Of a stretch of DNA of 64,000 nt, positions 42,085 through 45,873 are shown in pieces. Source of the stretch: Flavobacteriales bacterium (GTDB lineage: Bacteria; Bacteroidota; Bacteroidia; Flavobacteriales; Flavobacteriaceae); assembly GCA_011524905.1 (NCBI GenBank), contig WTJI01000041.1, forward strand, positions 1 through 64,000, in the 5' to 3' direction. Every line of letters begins with the position of its first letter. Within the stretch, counting starts at the first letter, position 1. The notes under the pieces were generated by a model. The model did not search any database. It saw nothing but the letters and a program-made list of their open reading frames with translations, and was not told where the DNA came from. The position numbers were made by a program, and so were the translations under genes.

Positions 42085-43716
<1,632 letters not shown>

Positions 43717-43754
43717 ATTTTTAAGCTTTTTGTCGTTGGGTTTTATATATTCGA

Positions 43755-44627
43755 ATGATGACTTTAAAAGCATGGCAAAGCACCGGAGATTTTTTTACAT
43801 ACGGCAAGCACCGTATATTTTATAAGAAAGCAGGGCAGGGGCCTGCACTTCTTTTGCTTCACGGTTTTCCCACGGCTTCTTGGGACTGGCATCTTATTTG
43901 GCAACCCTTACAAAAACATTTTACAGTATTTACTTTGGACTTATTGGGTTTTGGCTTTTCAGATAAACCAAAGCAAAACTATCTAATACACCAACAGGCA
44001 GATATAGTAATAGCTTTTTTATCAGATCAGAAGGTTGTTTCCTACCATCTTCTGGCGCATGATTACGGAGACACTGTGGCACAAGAAATATTAGCAAGAG
44101 CCAACAAAGGAGTCAAGATTAAAAAAAACAATGCCCCCAAGCTCCTTTCTCTTTGTTTACTTAACGGCGGATTGTTCCCTGAAACCCACCACCCCCTATT
44201 GGTGCAAAAAGTACTGATGAGTCCAATAGGGTGGCTGGTTGCAAAATTATTTACAAAGAAAAAATTGCAGCAAAACCTGGAAGGGATATTCGGATCTAAC
44301 ACACAGCCTACAAGGAAGAATATTACAGATTTCTGGACACTAATGACTCACAACCAAGGTAAACGTGTTTTTCATTTGCTTATTCGTTATATGCAACAAC
44401 GAAAAAAATACCGAAGTCGATGGGTGGGTGCCCTTCAGCAGACTCTTATTCCCATACAATTGATCAATGGTGTTGCAGATCCTATTTCTGGGGCACACAT
44501 GGTAGATCGGTATTGCGAATTGATTCCTCAACCCAATGTAGTGACTTTAGAAGATATTGGTCATTACCCACAAATTGAAGCACCAGAAGTAGTTTTACAG
44601 CATTATCTATCATTTGTGTTAAAATAG
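43755..44627 (+). CDS. alpha/beta hydrolase resembling vertebrate MEST (epoxide hydrolase/dehalogenase-like)
   Basis: A 290-residue alpha/beta hydrolase (start at 43755 or the adjacent ATG at 43758). The oxyanion segment is LLHGFPTASWDW, and the nucleophile elbow AHDYGDTVAQE has Asp103 rather than Ser, as in epoxide hydrolases and haloalkane dehalogenases. The acid is probably Asp in NGVADPISG and the base His in DIGHYPQIEAP. Motifs LLGFGFSDKP, NGGLFPETHHPLL and QQRKKYRSRWVGAL closely resemble what I recall of vertebrate MEST/PEG1. The substrate is unknown. It lies 38 bp after the ABC-F gene. Confidence 0.85.
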   Translation: MMTLKAWQSTGDFFTYGKHRIFYKKAGQGPALLLLHGFPTASWDWHLIWQPLQKHFTVFTLDLLGFGFSDKPKQNYLIHQQADIVIAFLSDQKVVSYHLLAHDYGDTVAQEILARANKGVKIKKNNAPKLLSLCLLNGGLFPETHHPLLVQKVLMSPIGWLVAKLFTKKKLQQNLEGIFGSNTQPTRKNITDFWTLMTHNQGKRVFHLLIRYMQQRKKYRSRWVGALQQTLIPIQLINGVADPISGAHMVDRYCELIPQPNVVTLEDIGHYPQIEAPEVVLQHYLSFVLK

Positions 44628-44771
44628 AAGCGCATTTAAGTTTATCGTTTGGCTTTAATTTTGATTAAACTGCTTGTTTTCTTGAATGCCACATTCATAC
44701 AATTTGATTATGGTACATTAAAGCAACAAGATTTAATGTTCATCCTGATTTTTTTCAAAGCGTTTACATGA

Positions 44772-45806
44772 TTACTCTTCTAAAATTAAAAAATGATTAT
44801 CCATGACATTTCCAGTCAGAATACCACCAGAGAAAGGGATTGCTACGGTTGATCCAGACATATTATTCCCTGTGTCTACCCAAATGCTTTCCACTTTATA
44901 ATTTCCTTTTTCTCGATAATCCAAGGTGATAATTTCAGATGGAGCTGTTTTGTATTTCCCTTGGGCATAGGCTGAAAATCGCAACAAATTGGGGTGTGCC
45001 CCAATCCATATTTTTCCCTGCTTATCAAGTGTTAGATTGTCGACACCTGTTCCACAATCAACATCTTCTATTGGTATAAGATCGCCGCCCTGTTGATATT
45101 GATAGACTGTAACACTAAAGTGCCTTGGGGATGCGACAAAAACCAACTTTCGTTGTCGATCAAAGGCAATTCCGTTGGCATAGGCAATTCCTGAAGCCAC
45201 TTCTCGATATGATGTTTCGTCTGCATAAATCACATTGGAGAGTGCCAAGCCACTATATTCTTCAATTAGTTTCATAGTACCCGCAGTATAACCGTGATCA
45301 TTGGTGAAATAAAATGCATTGGCACTGATTTGCACCAGATCATTGGGTTGGACCATAGTAGAATGCCGAAGTGATGCTACATGTGTTAGTTTTTGTTGGC
45401 TTAGAATGAATTTTTCAATGCTATGCTGTTTACCAATATGATTAATCGCCAGAATTTGATAGGTACTATCATTTAGTGGGAGTAGATCGATGCCATGCGG
45501 AGCAAAGTCAAAATCAAGGCTTGAGGTAAGTCGTATAGGGGTATAGGCAGTATCCTTAAGACTCAAATAATACAACCCCCCTTGCGCCATTTTCTGAGGT
45601 GGGTAGGTCCCTCTGTCCGTTGCAGAGATAAGGGCAAACGTTTCATCGGGGCTGATTACAATATCCTCTGCACCTCTTAAGGGAATCTTTGCAACTATGG
45701 CTCGGTTATTCGAAGAAGTGATCTTTCTAAAGAAACCAGTTGACAATAAGGTATAGGCTACAAAAGCCAGCAAAATGGTCAACAGTAAGATTCCAGTCTT
45801 TTTCAT
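44772..45806 (-). CDS. paraoxonase/arylesterase-like propeller protein, membrane-anchored
   Basis: A 344-residue protein with an uncleaved-looking N-terminal hydrophobic segment (ILLLTILLAFVAYTLLSTGF, about 5-25) and a six-bladed propeller. Compared with PON1 as I recall it, the calcium and catalytic residues are all present: Glu47-Asp48 (GAEDIV), His104 (PHGID), Asn155-Asp156 (PNDLV), Asn211 (ANGIAFD) and Asp256-Asn257 (VDNLTLD), plus FTNDHG. PON enzymes hydrolyse lactones and aryl esters, so a lactonase role is plausible but unproven. The SMP-30 family is a wider alternative. Confidence 0.82.
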   Translation of the reverse strand: MKKTGILLLTILLAFVAYTLLSTGFFRKITSSNNRAIVAKIPLRGAEDIVISPDETFALISATDRGTYPPQKMAQGGLYYLSLKDTAYTPIRLTSSLDFDFAPHGIDLLPLNDSTYQILAINHIGKQHSIEKFILSQQKLTHVASLRHSTMVQPNDLVQISANAFYFTNDHGYTAGTMKLIEEYSGLALSNVIYADETSYREVASGIAYANGIAFDRQRKLVFVASPRHFSVTVYQYQQGGDLIPIEDVDCGTGVDNLTLDKQGKIWIGAHPNLLRFSAYAQGKYKTAPSEIITLDYREKGNYKVESIWVDTGNNMSGSTVAIPFSGGILTGNVMDNHFLILEE

Positions 45807-45873
45807 GCAGTACGAATGAGTAGTAAATTACAACAAATAGACTGAATCATATAAGATATGACTGTGAAATAGT

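Follow-up and report, generated by a model that had tools for sequence, protein, structure and literature searches.

The question raised by this locus is whether a bacterium encodes a true relative of MEST/PEG1, the product of a vertebrate imprinted gene, and what chemistry such a relative would perform. The molecular function of MEST is still called unknown in a 2025 paper (PMC12609188), and activity data for any MEST-like member were not found in the literature searched. Within the window, by which we mean the whole 64,000-nucleotide stretch of Flavobacteriales DNA analysed, the gene concerned is:

43755..44627, + strand: MEST-family alpha/beta hydrolase, 290 aa (ATG-start ORF; Abhydrolase_1; MEST alignment; predicted model)

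The open reading frame is confirmed as originally placed, with an ATG start, and its product matches Abhydrolase_1 at 72.4 bits in a Pfam scan. Pfam and NCBIfam otherwise yielded general hydrolase models and matches far below cut-off, with no NCBIfam model over its cut-off. The human MEST sequence used here was written out rather than taken from a database record and was checked at one point, namely that it puts Ser-His-Asp at 145-147 as numbered in PMC5481029; residues 3-288 of the window protein align to it with 43% identity (219 bits; E 1e-74 for the single pair, well outside chance), and the match begins at human residue 39, indicating that the bacterial protein lacks an N-terminal stretch of about 38 residues. 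All four blocks that the original prediction quoted as shared with MEST are present and stand opposite near-identical blocks of the human sequence (LGFGFSDKP in both, FPETHHPLL against FPETHRPLL, QRKKYRSRWVGAL against QRKKFRRRWVGAL, and HYPQIEAP against HYPQLEDP), with LGFGFSDKP, FPETH, QRKK..RWVGAL and HYPQ.E.P common to the two in the alignment.

The proposal that MEST is closer to this protein than are other hydrolases also holds when judged by score: human MEST reaches 219 bits, as against 68.7 bits for an isobutylene epoxide hydrolase, which came top among 177635 distinct PDB sequences. Human MEST itself finds its best PDB match in a haloalkane dehalogenase, at 44.8 bits. For known members of these two enzyme classes the comparison is one of scores. 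On a bacterial profile of 66 sequences, built from the window protein together with 65 of the best 80 loci found in a species-genome scan, human MEST scores 305.9 bits, and the non-family hydrolases of the set, taken from the window's own and related genomes, score at most 91.5 bits. A further 36 family matches from outside the source loci of the profile, three of them the window gene itself and one (L127) the genome of L065 again, score 252.6-454.8 bits, and actinobacterial family matches extend down to 195.4 bits, which leaves a gap of 195 versus 92 between family and non-family proteins. A 98-row tree, made from 88 loci, the window protein, human MEST and eight outgroup hydrolases, separates the outgroup from the family with 100/97 support, in a bootstrap that had not settled; the rows closest to the window protein in it are from Bacteroidota. 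On this evidence the window protein is a member of the MEST family and a close, soluble relative of MEST. A quick tree nests human MEST among bacterial rows with weak support, from one animal sequence, and with that same single sequence an AU test did not establish the nesting (p-AU 0.407).

The predicted model of the hydrolase (mean pLDDT 95.1) and conservation across the family both bear on its catalytic residues. Row counts below refer to the 66-sequence profile and, where given, to a 90-row set comprising the 88 loci, the window protein and human MEST:

43860..43871, + strand: HGFP oxyanion-hole motif, residues 36-39 (H36, G37 and P39 in 66/66 rows, F38 in 54/66; putative role taken from the fold family)
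44061..44063, + strand: Asp103, proposed nucleophile, human Asp147 (D in 66/66 and 88/90 rows; strand-helix elbow in the model)
44388..44390, + strand: Tyr212, conserved lid tyrosine, human Tyr254 (Y in 64/66 and 82/90 rows; profile alignment with epoxide hydrolase)
44478..44480, + strand: Asp242, proposed triad acid, human Asp284 (D in 66/66 and 90/90 rows)
44562..44564, + strand: His270, proposed triad base, human His314 (H in 66/66 and 90/90 rows)

In the model Asp103, the D of HDYGD, ends strand 96-103 immediately before helix 104-119 and so forms a nucleophile elbow, Asp242 follows strand 234-239, and His270 lies in the loop after strand 262-265; these are the usual triad sites of the alpha/beta hydrolase fold. 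The elbow and the conservation of the residue support the earlier assignment of Asp103 as nucleophile. Two MEST-like proteins, L122 and L151, have Gly or Ala at this position (HGYG and HAYG) and may be changed or inactive paralogues.

The lid was examined in a profile alignment with five epoxide-hydrolase-like plasmid proteins, four of which we chose as epoxide-hydrolase-like and the fifth of which, from Mycobacterium dioxanotrophicus, agrees with aligned stretches of 8zp6. In it Tyr212, 109 residues past Asp103, falls on the latter of the two Tyr in NYYR, which stands 108 residues past the nucleophile; one of the five has Phe at this position. The human counterpart, Tyr254, we take to be the epoxide-coordinating tyrosine of the published work on MEST. 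Alpha/beta epoxide hydrolases carry two lid tyrosines, or a His and a Tyr, as described in PMC8244358. The other epoxide-hydrolase lid Tyr falls on Met155 of the window protein in this alignment, which is weak in the cap, with conserved His145 and Gln151 nearby. The epoxide-hydrolase core set of Asp nucleophile, His, acid and HGxP is present.

Structural comparison by VIA-align placed the model closest to the epoxide hydrolase MdEH (Z 31.9, rmsd 2.4, 274 aligned), with isobutylene epoxide hydrolase at Z 31.3, and epoxide hydrolases, a dehalogenase and C-C hydrolases all at Z of about 30-32. The first Foldseek match was 6i8w, a phospholipase A (E 2.0e-20, TM-score 0.75, rmsd 4.1), and 6i8w also came first in a profile search of the PDB (90.7 bits, with MdEH at 89.9). 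Since the Z values are close and a phospholipase A comes first, fold and score cannot settle the reaction.

We consider it probable that the protein is a soluble, cap-bearing hydrolase of the MEST family working through a covalent aspartyl intermediate, most likely in the opening of an epoxide or in a near variant such as a strained lactone, with epoxide-type chemistry our best guess. In such a two-step mechanism, Asp103 would attack an electrophilic carbon of the substrate while the residue next in sequence, together with the HGFP loop, holds the oxyanion, Tyr212 may polarise the leaving oxygen, and His270 together with Asp242 would activate water and free the product. It is supported by the fold of the model, the similarity to MEST and the conservation of the Asp/His/Asp set, as well as by the first place of MdEH in VIA-align and the alignment of Tyr212 on a lid-Tyr position. 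Against it stand the first place of phospholipase A elsewhere, the close Z values, the other lid Tyr on Met155, the absence of Tyr212 from 8/90 rows and of Asp103 from 2/90, and the pairing with an aldolase described below, which taken alone is no sign of epoxides.

Gene neighbourhoods in other genomes bear on the substrate. When the surroundings of the MEST-like gene were searched directly, 34 of the best 80 loci proved to have a same-strand class II aldolase upstream, and in 32 of the 80 the matched stretches of aldolase and hydrolase lie 11-53 bases apart; the distance is 1683 bases in L078, and in L039, a Saprospiraceae contig, a distant aldolase (35% identity) lies 203 bases from the MEST-like gene. 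The aldolase belongs to PF00596, and NF005451 was over cut-off in both proteins scanned. A sample of Pseudomonadota has the aldolase upstream in 11/26 cases, one being the genome of L065 again. This upstream arrangement was seen at 45 loci altogether (for example L088:5202-5993), mostly as a tight unit and in gammaproteobacteria, and in some Psychrobacter loci a Crp-type regulator on the opposite strand adjoins the unit. In Pseudomonas aeruginosa a hydrolase-aldolase pair bears the names PA3429/PA3430.

The pairing is not a constant of the family. On the tree the trait, carried by 16/88 rows with L039 counted and L078 left out, requires at least 6 changes. Among 20 carrier genomes, NF005451 is over cut-off in four, gives only weaker matches in five and is absent from 11; in G456, G459 and G460 the match over cut-off lies away from the MEST-like gene. 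These counts speak against a strict link between aldolase and hydrolase. A neighbour scan outside the gammaproteobacterial pattern, covering 20 proteins from 15 of 30 loci, found Radical_SAM proteins near the MEST-like gene in L066 and L074, the remaining neighbours being single cases save for the L039 aldolase. In a Flavobacteriales MAG (L044:3392-3943) an Mpo1-like (2-hydroxy fatty acid dioxygenase) gene lies directly upstream on the same strand, with no second case among the loci.

The aldolase gives some weight to another substrate class for an Asp-nucleophile hydrolase of the MEST family, namely a lactone, beta-lactone or activated ester tied to aldolase chemistry. The close same-strand spacing in 32/80 loci fits such a role, as does the recognition of one lid Tyr only, itself missing from 8/90 rows. 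We nevertheless regard this alternative as rather unlikely, given that proven epoxide hydrolases are among the close fold neighbours and that the window genome, in an assembly about 90% complete, has no match to NF005451.

An ordinary haloalkane or fluoroacetate dehalogenase is very improbable. Haloalkane dehalogenases share the Asp nucleophile and a similar fold, and NF002938, an NCBIfam model for haloalkane dehalogenases, gives the window protein 68.7 bits, but its curated cut-off, at 241, is far higher. Haloalkane dehalogenases also have a halide-binding Trp after the nucleophile and an Asn in HGNP, where the window protein has Tyr104 and Phe38, and the Arg pair that follows the nucleophile of fluoroacetate dehalogenases is absent.

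A serine hydrolase or acyltransferase using Ser-His-Asp 145-147 would accord with PMC5481029, which gives the MEST triad as Ser145-His146-Asp147 and draws attention, too, to a conserved tyrosine that coordinates epoxides. In the window protein the position of human Ser145 holds Ala, as it does in 67 of the 90 rows, with Ser in 14, Thr in five, Val in two and Cys in one. Moreover, by what is established for the alpha/beta hydrolase fold, three adjacent residues cannot make a triad, and we judge a serine-based mechanism extremely improbable. The family data thus fit the conserved tyrosine and speak against the serine. As Asp, His and Asp are near-invariant and the Ser position is mostly Ala, the MEST triad is likely Asp147/His314/Asp284, and the alignment suggests that Ser145 as catalytic residue is wrong.

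The ESTHER database includes a MEST-like group. Among the matches listed in the literature searched, no bacterial MEST relative was found in print, and MEST or PEG1 appears nowhere in a 2026 review of epoxide hydrolases. MEST-like genes are nonetheless common among bacteria and the window copy is no rarity: at a permissive tblastn cut-off (E 1e-3) the species-genome scan found 576 stretches that encode a relative, the best 80 of which are 48-58% identical to the window protein in their best segment and represent Bacteroidota, Pseudomonadota, Actinomycetota, Myxococcota, Acidobacteriota, Spirochaetota and other phyla. Phylum samples at E 1e-50, counted with the centre genome, showed relatives in at least 7/395 genomes of the window's own phylum, at least 26/398 around a Pseudomonas, at least 11/246 around a Nocardia and at least 2/118 around a deltaproteobacterial MAG, these four samples including genomes of which only some candidates were scored, and in 4/100 around a Leptospiraceae MAG. 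Of the expectation that a soluble bacterial homologue could serve as a model for MEST, the homologue stands, and with relatives so common it becomes one of many possible models. Two MEST-like genes each were seen in genomes G453, G455, G459 and G1268. A virus scan gave 62 pattern matches to the family alignment, none a relative by tblastn, and 338 plasmid records matched, all below 60% identity; the 20 listed are only 23-27% identical and were therefore set aside as general hydrolases rather than MEST-family members.

The surroundings of the window gene comprise:

42094..43716, + strand: ABC-F ATPase upstream, part of the older neighbourhood and no conserved partner of the hydrolase (NCBIfam ABC-F models; two congeners have it at the site but no hydrolase there)
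44772..45806, - strand: arylesterase/SMP-30-like gene sharing the lineage-specific stretch with the hydrolase (PF01731, 53.1 bits; absent at the site in two congeners)

The ABC-F stop codon lies 38 bases from the hydrolase start. Contigs of two congeners cover the site and show in series a gene for a 454-residue protein outside all Pfam families, the ABC-F gene and a symporter, the last two lying 103 and 46 bases apart in the two genomes. In the window positions 43717-45873 contain the MEST-like and arylesterase-like pair between ABC-F and a sodium:solute symporter. The hydrolase gene is thus lineage-specific at this site, and since the pair fills the place where the congeners have ABC-F beside the symporter, it was either gained in the window lineage or lost in the congeners. 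Conservation of the ABC-F neighbour, raised in the original prediction, did not materialise: no locus save the window's own copies has an ABC-F match above 150 bits beside the hydrolase, in a search where loci from the genome scan extend about 1.5 kb to either side and a number of contigs break off sooner. A set of 59 other genomes close to that of the window gave one family-level match to the hydrolase, in G012 (42%, 257 bits; next best 60 bits). Of 59 other genomes, two have a strong match to the arylesterase-like gene (52% and 49%) and another a weak one; among the family loci this gene matched the window itself only. The hydrolase gene has a GC content of 39.7%, the same as the window. That this bacterium recently acquired a MEST gene from an animal, as the patchy occurrence (1/59) and the lineage-specific stretch might suggest, is scarcely credible, the nearest rows being other bacteria up to 58% identical (best 80 of 576) versus 43% for human MEST, and the GC and GC3 of the gene being like those of its neighbours.

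A wider reading is tentative, and we put it forward as a possibility short of an even chance: that MEST is a branch of an old, mainly bacterial Asp-nucleophile family, that the printed Ser-His-Asp triad is wrong, that animals obtained the gene from bacteria, and that a pathway paired with the aldolase may offer a clue to the MEST substrate. The soluble relatives in bacteria, some of which are closely coupled to an aldolase in a unit of two genes, provide material for enzymology and genetics, and family conservation points to Asp147, not Ser145, as the first MEST residue to mutate.

Compared with known systems, phospholipase A 6i8w comes first in Foldseek and in the profile search of the PDB but has a Ser-type elbow, and its aligned stretch shows no Asp where the nucleophile would stand. 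Haloalkane dehalogenases (for example subfamily III, 8ooh) share the fold at Z 31.2, whereas the window protein is far below the NF002938 cut-off and lacks the halide-stabilising residues. The bacterial epoxide hydrolases 8zp6, 9c2g and 1ehy resemble the window protein in fold (Z 30.6-31.9), HGxP, the position of the Asp nucleophile and one lid Tyr, but structural alignments give 18-20% identity, and in the profile alignment their other lid Tyr is without a counterpart. Vertebrate MEST/PEG1 differs from the bacterial protein in its N-terminal stretch, in Ser145, where the latter has Ala, and in a few short gaps, and resembles it in 43% identity over window residues 3-288 with the same catalytic set and cap motifs.
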